From assembly GCA_025054955.1 (NCBI GenBank), contig JANWZE010000152.1, positions 1-64,000 on the forward strand: a DNA stretch of 64,000 nucleotides. Direction: 5' to 3'. A model generated the notes under the pieces. The model did not search any database. It was not told the origin of the DNA and was given only the letters and a program-made list of their open reading frames with translations. This DNA comes from Blastocatellia bacterium (GTDB lineage: Bacteria; Acidobacteriota; Blastocatellia; HR10; J050). The translations under genes were made by a program, and so were the position numbers. Positions 20,722-34,262 of this stretch are shown in pieces; position 1 is the stretch's first letter; every line of letters begins with the position of its first letter.

Positions 20722-22140
20722 ATGTCGAATAATCAACTCCACTCCACAGCAAGTTGGCAATCTGATTTGATTCGGACGAGCTTACCGGCGGAGTATCCGC
20801 CCGTGCCCTCATCGTTTGAAGAGCTTGGTTTAGAGCAAGACCTGTTAGTGCAATTGCTCGTGAAAACCCTCTATGTTGTCGGCGAGTTGACAGAAGCGTC
20901 TGCGGCGCAACGGTTGAAAGTGCCTTATGCCATTGTTGAAGAGTTGTTCCGCGTGCTACGCACGGAAAAATTGTGCGAGGTCAAAGGACTCAGTGGCGCG
21001 CGTGGCATTCTCTATCGTTACAACCTGACAGAGCTAGGCCGCGCGCGCGCACGCGACTACATGGAAGTCAGCCAATATGTCGGACCAGCGCCGGTGCCGC
21101 TGATTCAGTACGAGGCAATGATGGCTCGCCAATCGGTGCTGAACGTTCGCATCAACCGGCGGATGCTCGAAGCTGGCGTGACACATCTGGTGTTGCCGAC
21201 GTCACTGATTAACCAACTGGGTGAAGCGGTCAATTCCGGTTGGCCGATTTTCCTGTATGGCGAGCCAGGCAATGGTAAAACGGCATTGGCTGAGGCCATC
21301 GGCGAGATGCTCGGCAGCGTGGCCGGCGGCGAGATGTTCATCCCCTATGCCATCGAGATTGATAATCAGATCATTCAGGTTTATGACCCTGTCACGCACG
21401 TTGCTCTGGAAGTGGTCAGTGGCAATCCCAGCTCACTGATTGAGATCGAATCAGACACGGAGTATGACACGCGCTGGGTCCTCTGCAAACGACCGATTGT
21501 TTTCACCGGCGGCGAATTGACGCTGCCGATGTTGGACCTTTCATTCAATCCCATTTCCAAATACTACGAAGCACCTCCCCAGGTCAAAGCCAGCGGCGGC
21601 GTCTTCATCGTTGACGACTTCGGACGTCAACAGGTTCAACCGCAAGACTTGCTCAACCGCTGGATCGTGCCATTGGAAAAACGTGTAGACTACCTGACCC
21701 TGCACACGGGCAAAAAGTTCCGTGTTCCGTTTGATACCATCGTGGTATTTGCCACGAACCTTGAACCAAGCAAGCTAGCTGATGAAGCTTTCCTGCGACG
21801 TATCCGCAACAAGATTTTCGTCGGCGATCCATCGCTGGATATTTACACGGAAATTTTCAAACGACTCTGCGAGAAGAAGGGTATCCCGTTCGAGCCGGAA
21901 GCCATTGACTACTTGTACAACGAATACTACTTGAAGTACGGCATCGGCATGAGGAGTTGTCAACCACGCGATATTATTGAGCAAATCATGAGCATCGCCA
22001 AGTTCAACGAAATTCCACCCTCACTAGACCGAGACCTGATTGATCGAGCGTGCCAGATTTACTTCATGCTCAAGCCACCAGACCAAGACCTCAGCAGTAT
22101 CTACGAATCGGTGCCCAGCCGTCATACCAACCATTTTTGA
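20722..22140 (+). CDS. AAA+ ATPase with N-terminal winged-helix-like domain
   Basis: 472-aa cytoplasmic ATPase. Residues ~25-110 look like a winged helix (repeated short helices ending in GILYRYNLTELGRARARDY). The AAA+ module follows, with Walker A GEPGNGKTAL near residue 180, a Walker B VFIVDDFG near 297 and sensor-1-like VVFATNLEPSKLADEAFLRRIRNKI. GAAGGT precedes the ATG. The next gene is convergent, so it is probably a single-gene unit. I do not recognise a named function; similar ATPases act as remodelling or MoxR-like chaperones. The winged helix could bind DNA or a partner. Confidence 0.75.
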   Translation: MSNNQLHSTASWQSDLIRTSLPAEYPPVPSSFEELGLEQDLLVQLLVKTLYVVGELTEASAAQRLKVPYAIVEELFRVLRTEKLCEVKGLSGARGILYRYNLTELGRARARDYMEVSQYVGPAPVPLIQYEAMMARQSVLNVRINRRMLEAGVTHLVLPTSLINQLGEAVNSGWPIFLYGEPGNGKTALAEAIGEMLGSVAGGEMFIPYAIEIDNQIIQVYDPVTHVALEVVSGNPSSLIEIESDTEYDTRWVLCKRPIVFTGGELTLPMLDLSFNPISKYYEAPPQVKASGGVFIVDDFGRQQVQPQDLLNRWIVPLEKRVDYLTLHTGKKFRVPFDTIVVFATNLEPSKLADEAFLRRIRNKIFVGDPSLDIYTEIFKRLCEKKGIPFEPEAIDYLYNEYYLKYGIGMRSCQPRDIIEQIMSIAKFNEIPPSLDRDLIDRACQIYFMLKPPDQDLSSIYESVPSRHTNHF

Positions 22141-26422: not shown

Positions 26423-26450
26423 CGAACGAAACAGTTAGGAGGCAAACGCC

Positions 26451-27206
26451 ATGTGGGAACGATTAAAACGGCTGCTCCGGTCAATCTTTGGCGGCCTGAT
26501 TGAGAGGGCCGAAGACCCGGAACTGATTTTGCAACAGGTCATCCGCGACATGCGCGACAAGATACCGCAGATGAATGAAAACGTCGCCCAGGTGATGGCA
26601 ACGCAGAAATTGCTGGAAAAAGAGGTTGCCACGTTGGAGCGCGAGATCAAAGAACTGGATGGCAAAATTCGCGCAGCGATCAAACAGGGTCGCGATGATA
26701 TTGCGACGATGTTCATCAGCGCCATGCAAGAGAAGCAAAACTCGATGGAACGCGCCACACAAGAACTGGCGTCGGCCCGCGCTGCATCTGAGCAAGCCAA
26801 AAAATTCCGTGATAGCTACTTGCTACAACTGAAAAAGAAACAGGCCGAAGCCATGCAGCTCATCTCCGAACATAAGCGCGCCCGCTTGCAAGAACAACTG
26901 GCGCAAACGATGGCCAGCTTCCAGATCGGCGATGATGCGGCGACGTTTGACGAGATGCGCGAAAAGGTCGCCCGGCGCGTTGCCAGCGCTGAAGCTAAAA
27001 TAGATTTGGCCACCAGTAGCGTTGAATCGGAAATCGCCGAAATTGAGCGTGAAGCATTCTCCATGCAGGTGAACGATACGCTGGCCGCCTACAAACGCCA
27101 GATGGGGCTGGCTGTCGAAGGACCAGCGTCGTCACCCTCGGTCAGTGTCGAATCGTCACAAGAAAAAACGCTGGGACCGTCCGAACAAGCGCGTGCGACA
27201 GAATGA
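26451..27206 (+). CDS. pspA: PspA/IM30 (ESCRT-III family) membrane-remodelling protein
   Basis: 251-aa peripheral membrane protein of the PspA/Vipp1 family, which forms rods or rings on damaged inner membrane. It opens with the amphipathic helix MWERLKRLLRSIFGGLIERAEDPELILQQ, then has the long coiled coil typical of the family (roughly 25-215: MRDKIPQMNENVAQVMATQ, LEREIKELDGKIRAA, ASEQAKKFRDSYLLQLKKK). The last ~35 residues are a polar Ser/Glu tail. AGGAGG sits eight bases before the ATG. Two genes follow on the same strand (membrane coiled-coil protein, AAA+ ATPase) and form an apparent operon. No pspF or pspBC is present. Confidence 0.9.
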   Translation: MWERLKRLLRSIFGGLIERAEDPELILQQVIRDMRDKIPQMNENVAQVMATQKLLEKEVATLEREIKELDGKIRAAIKQGRDDIATMFISAMQEKQNSMERATQELASARAASEQAKKFRDSYLLQLKKKQAEAMQLISEHKRARLQEQLAQTMASFQIGDDAATFDEMREKVARRVASAEAKIDLATSSVESEIAEIEREAFSMQVNDTLAAYKRQMGLAVEGPASSPSVSVESSQEKTLGPSEQARATE

Positions 27207-27297
27207 CCGCTGGCCAACGATGCGAGACCGATCCGCTATGACCTTCTACTGATTGACGGATGACTGACTGCGGTTCACTGCCTACTCAAGAGCAACC

Positions 27298-28143
27298 ATG
27301 CCGGACAAGATCAACTACTACTGGGAAGCGTTCAAAGAACCATTAAATCTGTGGCCATTGGCCGGCCTGCTTGTTGCCTCCGCCATTGCCGCAGGACAAG
27401 GTCCAATGGGTGAATTAACCGGCTTGCTGATGCTAGGCGGCGGATTGCTGGCCGAAGCCATCTATATGATCACTGTGCCGACGAGCGGTTTCTACCGGCG
27501 ATTGATCGAACGCCGTCAAGCCAGAAAACTGAGCGATCAACGCCGAAAAGCGCGCGAAGAGGTGATTAAAAAATTTGATCCACGCGAGCGTGAAGCCGTC
27601 GCCTATTTGCAATGGCTGAAAAATCAAATCTACGCCAATTATCAGCGATTCTCCGGCTCCAAACAGATTCCGGCTGACATCCTGCAACTGGAGACCATGT
27701 GGGAACGGTTCGTTGACTTCCTCGACTTATACCGTCGGTGCAAATTGCACCTGCGCTCGTTTAACCGGCAAGCAATCGAAAATCAGATTGCGCAGGCCGA
27801 GCGGAATCTAGCGTCAGCCGACGATAAGACGCGCCGGGTGATTGAAAATAACCTGCAAATTCTCAAAGGCCGACTGGCCGAGTACGAAAGCATTCAACGG
27901 GCGGTGAAGCTGCTGGAAGCTCAACTGCAGTCCATCGAAAACTTTTTCGGTCTGGTCAATGATAAAGTCGTCACGATGTCTTCGATTGACAGCATTGCCT
28001 CGCTCGACTTCGATTCGGTCATTTCCAGCATTGAAATCACTCGCTCGTTGTTGGAAGAAACGGCGCCGATGATGAGCGCGTTGGAGTCATTGCAACGCGA
28101 GGAAACGCCGCGTCTACCACCAGAATTGCGCATCAGACAATAG
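27298..28143 (+). CDS. Membrane-anchored coiled-coil protein, unknown function
   Basis: 281-aa protein without a family I recognise. The N-terminus has two hydrophobic segments (LWPLAGLLVASAIAAGQG and LTGLLMLGGGLLAEAIYMITV, about residues 18-60). The rest is a charged, helical cytoplasmic part. A coiled coil is likely in IENQIAQAERNLASADDKTRRVIENNLQILKGRLAEYESIQRAVKLLEAQLQSIENFF (split across ~160-220). It lies between pspA (91 bp upstream) and an AAA+ ATPase (3 bp downstream). I infer that it anchors the ATPase or PspA to the membrane. Confidence 0.75.
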   Translation: MPDKINYYWEAFKEPLNLWPLAGLLVASAIAAGQGPMGELTGLLMLGGGLLAEAIYMITVPTSGFYRRLIERRQARKLSDQRRKAREEVIKKFDPREREAVAYLQWLKNQIYANYQRFSGSKQIPADILQLETMWERFVDFLDLYRRCKLHLRSFNRQAIENQIAQAERNLASADDKTRRVIENNLQILKGRLAEYESIQRAVKLLEAQLQSIENFFGLVNDKVVTMSSIDSIASLDFDSVISSIEITRSLLEETAPMMSALESLQREETPRLPPELRIRQ

Positions 28144-28146
28144 GCT

Positions 28147-29862
28147 ATGAGTGAAGCAAAACCTTATCGTTCGACCTCAGATGTCTCATCCTTGCCGGCG
28201 TGGGCTCAACAGATGGTTAAGAAGTACTACGCCGGTGAGGCAAGTCATTTCCTGCTCCATCACAATGTGCACGATTTAGTTCGCACGCGGGACGGCCAAT
28301 ATGTCGGGCTTGTGTCATTCTTGCGGCGCGAGCTACTGGGCAACAAAAACGTCGTCATGTACGATCGTAGCCAGGGCATCACGTTTGGCTCGCCGGAGGT
28401 TGAGCGCGCGTTCATCGCTCAACTGCGCGTGATGGACCCGCTTATGTCGAAAGAGGTGCTGGCCAAGCTGCCGAAAGATCCGGGGCGGGCGCTGCCGTTG
28501 ATTGAGCACTACATTTTCTATGGCGATCAAGCAGCCGTGATCATTGACTTTCTGGAGACCATCGTGCCGACCGGTGAAGTCAGTTACATGGGCCACGAAG
28601 ACCGCAATAACCTGGTCGCGCTGCAACGCTGGATCACCAGCTCACGACTGCTCAGCACAGATAATATCGTCATCCTCATTGCCGAATCGCTGGCTGATGT
28701 CAATCAGCGCATCCGCGAGAATTCGCGGCTGGCCACGATCCAAATTCCTTATCCCGATGAGGCCGAGCGATTGGATTACATTCGCTCGTTCCTGGCCAAC
28801 AACCCCGACCTGAAAATGGAAATGACCCCTGAGCAACTGGCTCACCTGACCTCCGGGTTGAATCGCGTTCACATCAACTCCATGATGCGCAGCTCGCAAC
28901 TGGACGAAGCCGGCTTGACGTTTGAATCAGTCCGATTGAAGAAGAAAGAAATCATCGAAGCAGAATGCTTCGGACTGATTGAATGGATCACGCCAAAATA
29001 TGGCCTGGAGCACGTTGGTGGATTGACTTATGCGAAGGATTTTCTGCGCCACATCGCCGAGACAATCAGACAGGGACGGACCGAGGAAGCGCCAATGGGT
29101 ATCTTGCTGAGCGGGCCGGTCGGCACAGGCAAGACATTCTTGGCCGAATGCTTCGCCCGCGACTGCGGCCTGAACGTCGTCGAGTTCAAAAATTTCCGCG
29201 AAAAGTGGGTTGGCTCAACCGAAGCCAATCTGGAGAAGATCCTGCACCTGCTGCACACACTGGCGCCAATTGTTGTGCTGATTGACGAAGCCGATGCCGC
29301 GCTGGGCAATCGCGTCAGCGAAGGCGATAGCGGCGTCAATGCCCGCGTCTTTTCTAAGATCGCCAGCGCCATGGGCGACACGACCAATCGTGGACGGATA
29401 CTCTGGATCCTCATGACCTGCCGCCCAGACCTGCTGCCCATTGACTTGAAGCGCCAAGGCCGCTGCGAAGAGCACATTTCGTTGTTCTATCCGCAAACTG
29501 AGCAGGAACGCCTGGAGATCACGCAGGCAATGGTCAAGAAGAACAAGATTCAAGTCGAAGATGGCATTGACTACGCCCCGATTCTGAAACACCCGCTGGA
29601 GATCTCCGGAGCAGACATTGAATCTATGCTGATCCGCGCCCGCCGTGAAGCGCGTCGCCAACAACGGCAACACGTCACGCAACACGATTTGGTAAAAGTC
29701 GCCAACGAATTCATTCCCGCGCGCGATGAACTGGAATTGGAATATCAAACGCTGGTTGCTGTGCTGGAAGCGACTTCGCGTGAGATGATCCCGCAGAAGT
29801 ACCGTGACATGCCTGCCTCGGAAATCAGCCGGCGCGTGGAAGAGTTGAAGATGCTGGTCTAG
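28147..29862 (+). CDS. Two-domain AAA+ ATPase (Cdc48/Vps4-like D2)
   Basis: 571-aa ATPase. The second domain is a full AAA module: Walker A GPVGTGKTFLAE near residue 325, pore-loop-like FREKWVGSTEANLEKI, Walker B VVLIDEADAALG, sensor ILMTCRPDLLPIDLKRQGRCEEHI. The first ~250 residues look like a degenerate AAA domain. VIIDFLETIVP resembles Walker B, and NIVILIAESLADVNQRIRENSR resembles sensor 1 plus Arg finger, but no P-loop is present. The start lies three bases after the preceding stop. Context with PspA suggests it disassembles or remodels PspA polymers, as Vps4 does for ESCRT-III; this is inference. Confidence 0.85.
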   Translation: MSEAKPYRSTSDVSSLPAWAQQMVKKYYAGEASHFLLHHNVHDLVRTRDGQYVGLVSFLRRELLGNKNVVMYDRSQGITFGSPEVERAFIAQLRVMDPLMSKEVLAKLPKDPGRALPLIEHYIFYGDQAAVIIDFLETIVPTGEVSYMGHEDRNNLVALQRWITSSRLLSTDNIVILIAESLADVNQRIRENSRLATIQIPYPDEAERLDYIRSFLANNPDLKMEMTPEQLAHLTSGLNRVHINSMMRSSQLDEAGLTFESVRLKKKEIIEAECFGLIEWITPKYGLEHVGGLTYAKDFLRHIAETIRQGRTEEAPMGILLSGPVGTGKTFLAECFARDCGLNVVEFKNFREKWVGSTEANLEKILHLLHTLAPIVVLIDEADAALGNRVSEGDSGVNARVFSKIASAMGDTTNRGRILWILMTCRPDLLPIDLKRQGRCEEHISLFYPQTEQERLEITQAMVKKNKIQVEDGIDYAPILKHPLEISGADIESMLIRARREARRQQRQHVTQHDLVKVANEFIPARDELELEYQTLVAVLEATSREMIPQKYRDMPASEISRRVEELKMLV

Positions 29863-30107: not shown

Positions 30108-30181
30108 GCGCCTGTAGCTCAATTGGACAGAGCAGCGGACTTCGGATCCGCAGGTTGGAGGTTCGAGTCCTCTCGGGCGCG
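30108..30181 (+). tRNA. tRNA-Arg (anticodon UCG)
   Basis: Full cloverleaf: acceptor GCGCCTG pairs with CGGGCGC, D-stem GCTC/GAGC, anticodon stem GCGGA/TCCGC around loop CTTCGGA (anticodon TCG at 30142-30144) and T-arm GGAGG-TTCGAGT-CCTCT. It reads CGA. CCA is not encoded. It is 26 bp upstream of a second tRNA-Arg and likely cotranscribed. Confidence 0.95.
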
Positions 30182-30207
30182 CGACGAAAAAAGGAACCAA
30201 CATAAAC

Positions 30208-30281
<74 letters not shown>

Positions 30282-30289
30282 CTTTTTTC

Positions 30290-30420: not shown

Positions 30421-30785
30421 CTCGCCTTCGTGGCGTGCACGGAGCACATGAGCGACTCCTCTGAAAATCCTCATCATCCATTCCTGCGAAGGGAAATGTC
30501 GCGCTCGTGTGCAAAAACCGAATGAGATTGTCAAGCCGGATCGTGCGAGGTTGTTCACCCACCAATGAAGAGCATCTGCCGGTGTGGACTCATCAGCCGG
30601 GTACCTTTTGCCAAGACTTGACGGCGATTTTGGATTAGGCTTCCCCTGAGGCGCTTTCGTTCTCCCAACAGGAGGCTTCCAAAAAAATTCAGCTTGACAG
30701 CGCAAGGCGCATGGGTGCAAGATAAACGCCGCAGGTTTGAGAAACGTCGGGTGGCGTAGTGGGGAGCACCCGAAAGGAGGGAAAA
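30421..30785. other. Gene-free stretch before the WD40/beta-helix gene
   Basis: About 365 bp with no supportable gene. A 171-codon minus-strand frame (30406-30921) runs into the next gene's signal-peptide region and has a low-complexity, Pro/Arg-rich translation. The last bases carry the ribosome site of the following gene. Confidence 0.5.
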
Positions 30786-33700
30786 ATGATCTCCCCGACG
30801 ACGCATAGGATCTTCTTGGTTGTGGTTCTCTGCCTGTTGGCCGATTGGCTTCTCTTGGCCGGTCTCTCGACGCGGGCGGAGACGTTTCTGGTGTGCGCGC
30901 AGGGCTGTCCTTACAGCTCAATACAGGAAGCTATCGGTCGGGCAAGTCCCGGCGACACGATCCTCGTTCAGGCCGGGACCTATACAGAGAATCTGGTCAT
31001 TACAAAGCAAGGCCTCATCCTTCGCGGGGAAGACCCGGAGAAGGTCATTGTGCAAGCGCGATTTTCGGATGAGCCAGTTGTCCTCGTGCGTGAATCGAAT
31101 GTGCGCGTGAGCAGTCTCACCGTGACGGGGGGCGCGCGGGGGGTTCAGATCGAACCCAGGGGGAATAATCCCACGCTCTCAAACCTCATTGTGCGCGGGA
31201 ATCAGGGCGAAGGGCTCTTCATCGAGGCAACTCAAGCTGGAGAAGCGCGCGGCTGCTTGATCCGGGGGAACACGATTGGTGTCTTCGTGGGGTTGCGAGG
31301 GGCTTTTCGGTTCACCGCGAACCGGATTCGCGACAATCGGGACGGCGTAGAGGCTCTGGACGCCGATCGCGTGGAAGTGCGGGAGAATGTGATCACGGGT
31401 AATCTGGGCTGTGGGGTGAAAGCTGATGATCGCTCTCAGCTTCTTGGCTCCAACAACGCCATCTTTGCCAACGGTCAGAATCTCTGCGGCCGTGCGCAGA
31501 ATCGCCCAGACCTCTTGGATCAGACTCCACCCCCTCCTCCGCAGAACCTCGTGGTCACTCCAGCCGAGTGGACCAATCAAGGGCGATTTGAAATTACGTG
31601 GGAGGATTCGGTGGACCTGGCGGGCATCGTCGCTTACTTCTTCAAGCTGGGCGCTGCGCCTGCGAGCGCTACCGATGGAATACGTCGGGAGATCGCCCAG
31701 AAGCCGCTTGTCCTCGAGAATCCATCGGAAGGAGAGCGACCCGTCTTCGTTTGGCTTGAAGATGGGATGGGAAATCGGAGTCATCTGAATGCCGCTCGCG
31801 GCACGCTTCGGTTTGATCGCACGCCGCCGTCGGGCACGCTGCTGATCAATCGGGGAGCGCGGCAGACGACGGAGCTGCGGGTCGCCCTCACGCTTCAGGT
31901 TCAGGATGCAGCGAGCGGATTGGCCGAGATGCGATTCTCTAACGATGGGCAGACCTGGTCGCCCTGGGAGCCCTTCGCCGCAGAGAAGGCCATTTGGGAC
32001 CTTTCGCAATTCGGTGGAAATGCCGATTCCGGTCGCAAGACCGTGTCCGCTCAAGTGCGAGATCGGGCGGGCAATGTGGCCTCGCTCTCGGCACAAATTG
32101 AGTACATTCGACTCCAACCTCCCTCGGTTCGATTCACGTTCACACCCCAAACCCCACGTCCTGCTCAGCGGGTGACCTTCGACGCTTCAGGTTCCTCCAG
32201 TCCGAATGGCGCCCTCACCCGCTACGTCTGGAACTTCGGCGACGGGACGGAACGGCAGGCGAATCAACCGACCATCCAGCACACGTATGCTTCCGAGGGA
32301 CGCTACACCATTCGCCTGACGGTAACAGACGCCTTGGGCATGACGGCTTCCGCCGAGCGAACATTGGTGGTGGAAGCTCGCTCGGATACGCTGCGTGTGC
32401 CTCAGGACTTCTCCAGTGTGGAGGATGCCGTCAGAGCTGCTCAGCCGGGAGATGTCATCGTCATCAGCGCCGGGTTCTACAGCGTGAATTTGGTGCTCGA
32501 TAAGCCTCTGACGCTCCGAGGCGTCGGGCCTCAGACGCTGCTTCGGGGGCAGGATTTGAGCCGACCCGTGCTTGTTGTTCAAGGCGAAGGCTTTCAAATG
32601 CGCGTGGAGAATATGAGGCTCACAACACAATCCGCGGCGACAGCAGCCACGGTCTCTGCCCAAAGCGGGTCACTCACAATAGCGTCGGCAGTGCTTGAGA
32701 ACCTCAGTGCTGCGCCAGCGCTGGAGATGGCTGGATCAGCTCGTGTTTCCCTGGAGGGTACGGAAATGGCGCCGATCCGTTTATCCAGCGCTCGTGGGAC
32801 GACTCTTCGCGCTCGCGATCAAGCCCAGCTTACCACTGCCCATGTCCAGTTCGCCGGGGAGGCGGGATTGGCTTTCACTGGATCGGCCACAGCCGTTGTG
32901 GAGGATTCGGCGATTGCTGCTGCTAGCGGTAGCGGTTTCGCCTTCGATGGCTCAGGGAATCTAGCCCTCACTGGTGTGAGCATCGAGGCTGGGGGCGATG
33001 GGCTGTCATTTTCTTCCTCCGGTTCGCTCACTATAGAAGGTGTCGAGATTGTGGCGGGCAAAACGGCCGTGCGGCTTGCGGGATCGGCCGAGCTGGCGCT
33101 CGATCTCACAGATTCGGCGTTGGCGGGAGCCGAGGTTGGGCTCTCTCTGAGGGGAACGGTTCGCGTGACCGCCATGGACGGCACGATCCAGGGAGGTCTG
33201 ATCGGCCTCGATGTCGGAGAGAATGCGTGGCTTGTGATGGAGGGCACGGAGGTCACCGGCGATGGGCTCAATGTGAAAGTCAGCGGGCGGGCGGGCGCAC
33301 GACTTCAGCGGATGAAGCTTTACGGTGGATTGGCTGGCGCGCTGGCCAGGGATTCGGCGACGCTTATTCTTGAGGGTAACACGATCACCGACCACGCCCT
33401 GTGGGGCGTTTTCCTGCCTCAACTTCCTTGCTTGGTGACGAGCACGCTCAGCGGGCATACCGATTGGGTCAACTCCGTCGCCTTCAGTCCGGGTACGAAG
33501 CTTCTGGCCTCGGGGTCCGGGGATCAAACGATCCGGGTGTGGGATGTGGGGACGGGCAATCTCGTGCGCACGCTCAGTGGGCATACCGCTTGGGTCAGCT
33601 CCATCGCCTTCAGTCCGGATGGGAAGGTTTTGGCGTCAGGGTCAGGGTCAGGGTTCTTGGATGGGACGGTTCGGCTGTGGGACGCAGCGACGGGAGCTCT

Positions 33701-34262
33701 GGTGCGCACGCTCAGCGGGCATACGGGTGGGGTTAGCTCCGTCGCCTTCAGTCCGGATGGGAAGCTTCTGGCATCAGGGTCATGGTACGGGGATCAGACG
33801 GTTAGGGTGTGGGACGTAGCGACGGGAGCTCTGGTGCGCACGCTCAGCGGGCATACAGGTGGGGTTAGCTCCGTCGCCTTCAGTCCGGATGGGAAGCTTT
33901 TGGCATTGGGGTCCGATGATCAAACGGTCCGGTTGTGGGATGTAGGGACGGGCAATCTCGTGCGCACGCTTAGCGGGCATACCAATTTGGTCCGCTCCGT
34001 TGCCTTCAGTCGGGATGGAAAGCTTCTGGCATCGGGCTCTGCGGATCGGACGGTCAAGTTGTGGAATGTCGGTATGGGAGTTGAGTTGGTTGATGTGGCG
34101 TTAGAGCTTTCATCCGGTCCGGCTGCGGAATTCACGGGTGTGCTGACAGGGAGCGAGAACGAGATGGAGCGGAACGGACAGCGATTGCCCCAACAGGCAC
34201 TACAAGATGCTCAGGCAGATGTCTGTCCCGCCTACCTGCGCTTCCTGATTAAGCCAAAATGA
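30786..34262 (+). CDS. Secreted beta-helix/PKD protein with inserted WD40 array
   Basis: 1158-aa surface protein; the start at 30786 has GGAGG five bases upstream and a signal peptide (IFLVVVLCLLADWLLLAGL). Domains in order: a right-handed beta-helix (~40-215, NosD/pectate-lyase-like, with SSIQEAIGRASPGDTILVQAGTY split over its start), Ig-like linker domains (~225-440), a PKD domain (~445-535, FDASGSSSPNGALTRYVWNFGDG), and a second beta-helix (~540-875). Then come five WD40 repeats (~886-1098, TLSGHTxxVxSVAFSPDGKLLASGS). The short tail (FTGVLTGSENEMERNGQ, CPAYLRFLIKPK) reads like the resumed end of the beta-helix. It follows the tRNA-Arg repeats. Function is probably adhesion or glycan binding. 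Confidence 0.85.
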   Translation: MISPTTHRIFLVVVLCLLADWLLLAGLSTRAETFLVCAQGCPYSSIQEAIGRASPGDTILVQAGTYTENLVITKQGLILRGEDPEKVIVQARFSDEPVVLVRESNVRVSSLTVTGGARGVQIEPRGNNPTLSNLIVRGNQGEGLFIEATQAGEARGCLIRGNTIGVFVGLRGAFRFTANRIRDNRDGVEALDADRVEVRENVITGNLGCGVKADDRSQLLGSNNAIFANGQNLCGRAQNRPDLLDQTPPPPPQNLVVTPAEWTNQGRFEITWEDSVDLAGIVAYFFKLGAAPASATDGIRREIAQKPLVLENPSEGERPVFVWLEDGMGNRSHLNAARGTLRFDRTPPSGTLLINRGARQTTELRVALTLQVQDAASGLAEMRFSNDGQTWSPWEPFAAEKAIWDLSQFGGNADSGRKTVSAQVRDRAGNVASLSAQIEYIRLQPPSVRFTFTPQTPRPAQRVTFDASGSSSPNGALTRYVWNFGDGTERQANQPTIQHTYASEGRYTIRLTVTDALGMTASAERTLVVEARSDTLRVPQDFSSVEDAVRAAQPGDVIVISAGFYSVNLVLDKPLTLRGVGPQTLLRGQDLSRPVLVVQGEGFQMRVENMRLTTQSAATAATVSAQSGSLTIASAVLENLSAAPALEMAGSARVSLEGTEMAPIRLSSARGTTLRARDQAQLTTAHVQFAGEAGLAFTGSATAVVEDSAIAAASGSGFAFDGSGNLALTGVSIEAGGDGLSFSSSGSLTIEGVEIVAGKTAVRLAGSAELALDLTDSALAGAEVGLSLRGTVRVTAMDGTIQGGLIGLDVGENAWLVMEGTEVTGDGLNVKVSGRAGARLQRMKLYGGLAGALARDSATLILEGNTITDHALWGVFLPQLPCLVTSTLSGHTDWVNSVAFSPGTKLLASGSGDQTIRVWDVGTGNLVRTLSGHTAWVSSIAFSPDGKVLASGSGSGFLDGTVRLWDAATGALVRTLSGHTGGVSSVAFSPDGKLLASGSWYGDQTVRVWDVATGALVRTLSGHTGGVSSVAFSPDGKLLALGSDDQTVRLWDVGTGNLVRTLSGHTNLVRSVAFSRDGKLLASGSADRTVKLWNVGMGVELVDVALELSSGPAAEFTGVLTGSENEMERNGQRLPQQALQDAQADVCPAYLRFLIKPK
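33444..34091 (+). repeat. Five tandem WD40-coding repeats
   Basis: Near-identical DNA units begin at 33444, 33570, 33708, 33840 and 33966 (126-138 bp each), each starting with ACGCT(C/T)AG(C/T)GGGCATAC. The close DNA similarity points to recent tandem expansion. Length differences come from short insertions in the SGS loop. Confidence 0.9.

Follow-up and report, generated by a model that had tools for sequence, protein, structure and literature searches.

A PspA, membrane protein, and tandem AAA+ ATPase gene set of Blastocatellia as a candidate ESCRT-III/Vps4-like unit

Proteins of the PspA family form polymers on the inner membrane. Their classical partners are PspF, an AAA+ protein, and PspBC and PspM, which are membrane proteins. 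In Acidobacteriota, Popp et al. 2022 (PMC9239133) described band-7 and HTH proteins as the partners of PspA, and the available portion of that paper mentions no ATPase of the kind discussed here. Complete ESCRT-III/Vps4 systems are reported only from archaea and eukaryotes (Makarova et al. 2024, PMC10936438), and the remodeling of bacterial PspA/Vipp1 polymers by an external ATPase was left as a question by Liu et al. 2021 (PMC8281802). An ATPase with two AAA domains, the first of them inactive, encoded beside bacterial PspA was reported by Ravi et al. 2024 (mSystems, PMC11237479), who proposed ATP-dependent membrane remodeling and described longer operons with an ABC ATPase, a permease, and a PBP-OmpA protein. 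Because of that report, the link between PspA and such an ATPase is not new. The main-text passages of the same paper that we consulted describe no tag at the PspA tail, no class-wide three-gene unit, and no losses, and a search of open-access papers brought up no account of the tail tag, the natural losses, or the class-wide unit.

The locus and its three products

The window, by which we mean the whole 64,000-nucleotide stretch of a Blastocatellia genome that was analyzed (contig JANWZE010000152.1), had been given a preliminary description in which PspA, a coiled-coil membrane protein (TMcc below), and an AAA+ ATPase lie on one strand with a 3-bp gap before the last gene. The three open reading frames are there as described; PspA and TMcc are separated by 91 bp, and TMcc and the ATPase by 3 bp. 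The features are as follows.

26437-26442, + strand: AGGAGG, Shine-Dalgarno-like, read directly, 8 bp upstream of the PspA start
26451-27206, + strand: PspA gene, 251 aa
27165-27203, + strand: C-terminal tag and end of PspA, K239-T-L-G-P-S-E-Q-A-R-A-T-E, residues 239-251
27298-28143, + strand: TMcc gene (membrane-anchored helical protein), 281 aa
27340-27477, + strand: hydrophobic segments of TMcc, residues 15-33 and 42-60 by hydropathy (model helices 15-32 and 36-62)
28147-29862, + strand: tandem AAA+ ATPase gene, 571 aa
28195-28986, + strand: first AAA domain, degenerate and without Walker A, approximately residues 17-280, from sequence, model fold, and p97 alignment
29113-29136, + strand: Walker A GPVGTGKT of the second AAA domain, residues 323-330; G323, G326, G328, and K329 invariant in 55 homologs
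29206-29214, + strand: pore loop W354-V-G356; W354 and G356 invariant in 55 homologs
29272-29289, + strand: Walker B VVLIDE, residues 376-381; D380 and E381 invariant in 55 homologs
29452-29463, + strand: arginine-finger residues R436 and R439, invariant in 55 homologs; role by analogy with p97

Directly past the three-gene unit are tandem tRNA-Arg genes with anticodons TCG and CCG (30108-30282). A large open reading frame at 30759-34262 appears to encode right-handed beta-helix-like repeats, a PKD-like domain, and WD-40 repeats, and another at 20722-22140 carries an apparent AAA-type ATPase motif, GEPGNGKT.

The placement of PspA in the ESCRT-III superfamily is borne out by a Pfam search, in which the protein matches PF04012 at 108.1 bits against a gathering cutoff of 33.9, and its relatives of solved structure are Vipp1 and PspA (E 3e-17). 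For TMcc, an AlphaFold2 model (pLDDT 87.7) predicts an all-helical protein with a short N-terminal hairpin and then long helices, which would be cytosolic. TMcc matches no curated family (Pfam and other curated models) and no solved chain by sequence, and the PspB, PspC, PspM, and PspF models match neither TMcc nor the ATPase. We also considered TMcc as an ESCRT-III/Snf7 homolog. The model gives Z scores of 8.4-8.6 with ESCRT-III chains, amid rows of unrelated BAR and coiled-coil proteins at 8-9.7; a Foldseek search with the model returned no match with E under 0.1, no Snf7 or PspA Pfam match was found at E up to 1, and hhalign of TMcc with PspA gave a probability of 1.3%. The assignment is thus without sequence support, and the present evidence does not place TMcc in that family. 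TMcc may be what Ravi et al. call "Snf7 homologs with a TM segment". TMcc was also looked for on plasmids, and none was found.

The preliminary description called the third product a Vps4/Cdc48-like module, a label of which one half survives. Pfam matches AAA at residues 319-445 with 94 bits, the predicted structure (pLDDT 91.5) folds residues 17-280 into a second AAA-like domain, and p97 aligns over residues 7-543, that is, with a tandem AAA fold. The top sequence matches of the second AAA domain are Cdc48/p97, and by sequence and predicted fold the motor module is nearest to Cdc48/p97, not Vps4. Judged by analogy to p97 and Vps4, its motor residues are what one expects of an AAA+ unfoldase that threads its substrates. 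The tandem pair and a second domain with Walker A, Walker B, and arginine fingers are as expected of Cdc48/p97; a Walker A in both domains and an N domain are not found, the latter because the first AAA domain begins near residue 17 and leaves no room for it. Curated models score below their cutoffs, at 94.9 bits for CDC48 (cutoff 802.65) and 46.6 bits for CdvC (cutoff 650), and Pfam finds neither an MIT nor a Vps4_C domain at E up to 1. Membership of Vps4 is excluded because the MIT domain is missing and the AAA domains are in tandem, so that the Vps4 half of the label falls and the Cdc48 half, which describes the sequence and fold of the second domain, holds. A literature search on a suspected likeness to cyanobacterial Ycf46 gave nothing usable.

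Distribution and gene order

We surveyed 98 Blastocatellia genomes with an ATPase threshold of E up to 1e-40 and found PspA in all 98, TMcc in 96, and the ATPase in 44. The near-universal presence of PspA and TMcc in the class puts the three-gene set beyond chance. Four of the 44 ATPase-bearing genomes have only a long-operon form. A manual tally of the remaining 40 over three tables gives 27 with the order PspA-TMcc-(0 or 1 gene)-ATPase, one in which a contig end splits the locus, and 12 with the ATPase elsewhere, 10 of these in family f6 and two in family f9. Family f5 (55 genomes) has no ATPase of the window type, and PspA adjoins TMcc in 53 of its genomes; in several f5 genera the pair still lies downstream of purD, as in the window. 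In one genome of family f8 (G037), PspA, TMcc, and the next gene are kept and the ATPase is gone. As TMcc stays beside PspA where the ATPase is absent, it probably serves PspA in the first place, the simplest possibilities being an anchor or a nucleator. At the f8 loci (L075:4283-5362, L288:5502-6659, and others), a protein of ∼340-390 aa lies between TMcc and the ATPase; it has a TonB C-terminal domain in L075 and is retained in the ATPase-less G037.

Beyond the class, the ATPase family ranges over other Acidobacteriota, Myxococcota, Bacteroidota (Rhodothermales and Balneolaceae included), Armatimonadetes, and Cyanobacteria. Three arrangements recur: PspA-TMcc-ATPase; PspA-[PBP-OmpA]-permease-ABC ATPase-TMcc-ATPase, which is the long operon of Ravi et al.; and, in Balneolaceae, PspA, TMcc, a 261-aa protein, a 427-aa protein, and the ATPase. 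Loci L067-L074 are long operons encoding a PBP-OmpA protein, a permease, an ABC ATPase, a TMcc of divergent sequence, and a protein of 250-300 aa with the N-terminal motif [TS]-[ED]-[DE]-I-L-R-E-M. Several of them have no PspA or ATPase nearby, and the same genomes carry the short unit elsewhere.

In our sample of 247 Acidobacteriota genomes, every genome outside Blastocatellia with both genes has PspA beside the ATPase (14/14, 13 by coordinates and the last being L216). Among 156 Myxococcota genomes, 102 have both genes, five PspA only, 11 the ATPase only, and 38 neither, as raw counts with kin included. The expectation that the three-gene order would be conserved across the phylum therefore stands for linkage in the other Acidobacteriota but not as a universal order within the class, where it is seen in 27 of 40 genomes. 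These data bear on the reading of the locus as a common stress operon whose genes have little to do with one another, with the ATPase a general unfoldase that came to lie near PspA by accident. Such an accident would fit the relatives in which the ATPase is found elsewhere, for example, in Rhodothermales beside a gene that looks aldolase-like, but it sits badly with the unbroken linkage in Acidobacteriota outside the class and the strong co-occurrence in Myxococcota, and we regard it as highly improbable.

The C-terminal tag of PspA and its candidate reader

The PspAs of ATPase-bearing Blastocatellia end in EK[ST]LGP[SA][ED]..., and the tails of f5 are variable. In the window PspA the core of this tag is EKTLGPSE; the tail peptide is QEKTLGPSEQARATE, and that of Myxococcota is EKTIGKKVEVK. 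K239 is kept in at least 90% of 34 PspAs. For counting we used the pattern [KR][TS][LIMV] within the last 25 residues, a short pattern, originally found by inspection and fixed from Blastocatellia tails, that shuffled tails match at a rate of ∼8%. The tag is present in 126/141 sampled PspA genes from ATPase-bearing genomes (Acidobacteriota, Myxococcota, Bacteroidota, and others) versus 1/41 from genomes without the ATPase. Within Blastocatellia, the figures are 32/35 with the ATPase and 0/22 in the ATPase-less f5. Outside the class, 46 of 53 ATPase-linked PspAs are tagged, where shuffled tails would give ∼4, compared with none of 19 unlinked controls; many control PspAs belong to a different PspA clade. 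A wider form, K[TSEDQ][LIMV], which was designed after these sequences had been inspected, covers 53/53 linked PspAs. In Myxococcota, 40/41 sampled PspAs of ATPase-bearing genomes and 1/5 of those without it are tagged; G467 has a tagged PspA, located on a 5-kb contig, and no ATPase was found in that genome.

The tag also follows the ATPase where the two genes are apart. When no PspA neighbors the ATPase, the main PspA elsewhere in the genome is tagged in 15 of 20 cases; two of the 20 (L276 and L277) are Blastocatellia that also figure in the count for the class. Scattering of the genes among relatives, which the preliminary description had named as evidence against a functional set, does occur in part of the class, and the PspA tag persists there, as in the scattered genomes of f6. 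Seven genomes have two PspAs (G062, G089, G090, G133, G264, G271, and G308; the ATPase locus of G090 is split between contigs), and in all seven the tag or a variant of it ends the copy at the ATPase locus but not the second copy. The tag is missing from both Blastocatellia lineages that have PspA-TMcc and no ATPase (f5 and G037). Family f9 keeps the ATPase with a PspA tail reduced to the end RAKALE, some Bacteroidia have degenerate PspA tails, and at PspA-less loci the ATPase-adjacent genes yield only chance-like matches to the tag. The tag is kept with the ATPase and lost without it despite the presence of TMcc, which makes the ATPase a better candidate than TMcc for the protein that reads it.

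We considered the tag as a general protein label and rejected this, as the coding pattern K-[ST]-L-G-P occurs 19 times in the genome and its reversed-pattern control 17 times. These sites include the PspA tail and that of a VOC (glyoxalase-like) protein containing a stretch similar to late PspA helices; the protein is found in this genome and two relatives in its family (G000 contig C108 near 15320, L080:5343-6365; L242:681-1514; L243:1122-1949). The VOC fusion ends in KPV[RQ]KTL[GA]PAPD. Judged from these sequences, the PspA-like helix and tag behave as if they were a portable module.

The tag counts are dominated by shared ancestry, as related genomes inherit the tag by descent. We therefore built a PspA tree without the tails and counted independent changes in ATPase presence, of which there are ∼5; the tag is concordant in three, opposite in none, and without difference in two (sign test, p 0.25). 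With fewer than six informative pairs this test cannot reach 0.05; the direction is consistent, and the independent changes are too few for significance. Their small number favors the view that the tail is a self-regulatory or membrane-contact element, like that of plant VIPP1, and that it agrees with the ATPase through shared lineage; a functional disordered C-terminal tail has been reported for VIPP1 (a title cited in PMC11237479). That view does not accommodate the recurrence of the motif in PspAs that are only 20-40% identical, its presence on linked and absence from unlinked copies of the same genome, or its occurrence at the end of the VOC-domain protein with a PspA-like helix. We consider it improbable.

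A further reading, unlikely although the most credible of the alternatives, has the ATPase act mainly on TMcc or a TMcc-centered complex, such as the ABC transporter of the long operon, pulling out or refolding TMcc with PspA as a mere partner. TMcc is directly upstream of the ATPase in many loci, both belong to the long operon with its ABC transporter genes, and the mean charge of the last ten TMcc residues is +1.4 where the genome has the ATPase versus −0.3 in f5. Left unexplained would be the tracking of the ATPase by the PspA tail, including in genomes with PspA far from the ATPase, and f5, which keeps TMcc yet lost the tag. Since the TMcc C-terminus differs where the ATPase is missing, TMcc may be a second client of the ATPase; the ATPase adjoins TMcc as often as PspA, so that PspA may not be its sole substrate.

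Proposed function and relation to known systems

Taken together, sequence, structural models, and analogy make it probable that PspA, TMcc, and the ATPase form a bacterial PspA-remodeling unit that works like ESCRT-III/Vps4. The preliminary proposal of an ATPase dedicated to PspA, parallel to Vps4, gained support from the linkage, the Myxococcota co-occurrence, and the tracking tag. In the proposed scheme, PspA would polymerize on the inner membrane, and TMcc, with its N-terminal hairpin in the membrane, would most likely tether it there or organize it. The ATPase, as an AAA+ ring of two tandem domains of which only the second works, would bind the C-terminal tag of PspA and thread the subunits through its W-V-G pore, and PspA coats could thereby be recycled after stress. 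Evenly balanced, in our judgment, is the broader proposal that several phyla possess a complete ESCRT-III-plus-motor system in which PspA and a membrane anchor work with an ATPase of Cdc48-like, not Vps4, type, and in which the PspA tag would play the role that MIM motifs have for Vps4. If so, a Vps4-like recognition logic was reached from a different ATPase. The tracking of a tag with a dedicated ATPase opens the external-ATPase question raised by Liu et al. to a direct test, for which a single peptide, the ATPase, and PspA rods would be enough. Myxococcota carry both genes.

The likeness to ESCRT-III/Vps4 is one of working principle; the ATPase itself is not a Vps4. The window shares with the pair of Ravi et al., who name AEY64321.1 and OGG56892.1 as examples, a PspA beside an ATPase with an inactive first AAA domain. 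Like Cdc48/p97, the ATPase has a tandem AAA fold and a second domain of that sequence type, but unlike them it is without an N domain and its first AAA domain is without Walker A. As in Vps4/CdvC, an AAA+ motor whose pore loop has the form W-x-G goes together with an ESCRT-III superfamily partner with a C-terminal recognition element, putative in PspA; unlike Vps4/CdvC, the motor has no MIT domain and carries its AAA domains in tandem.
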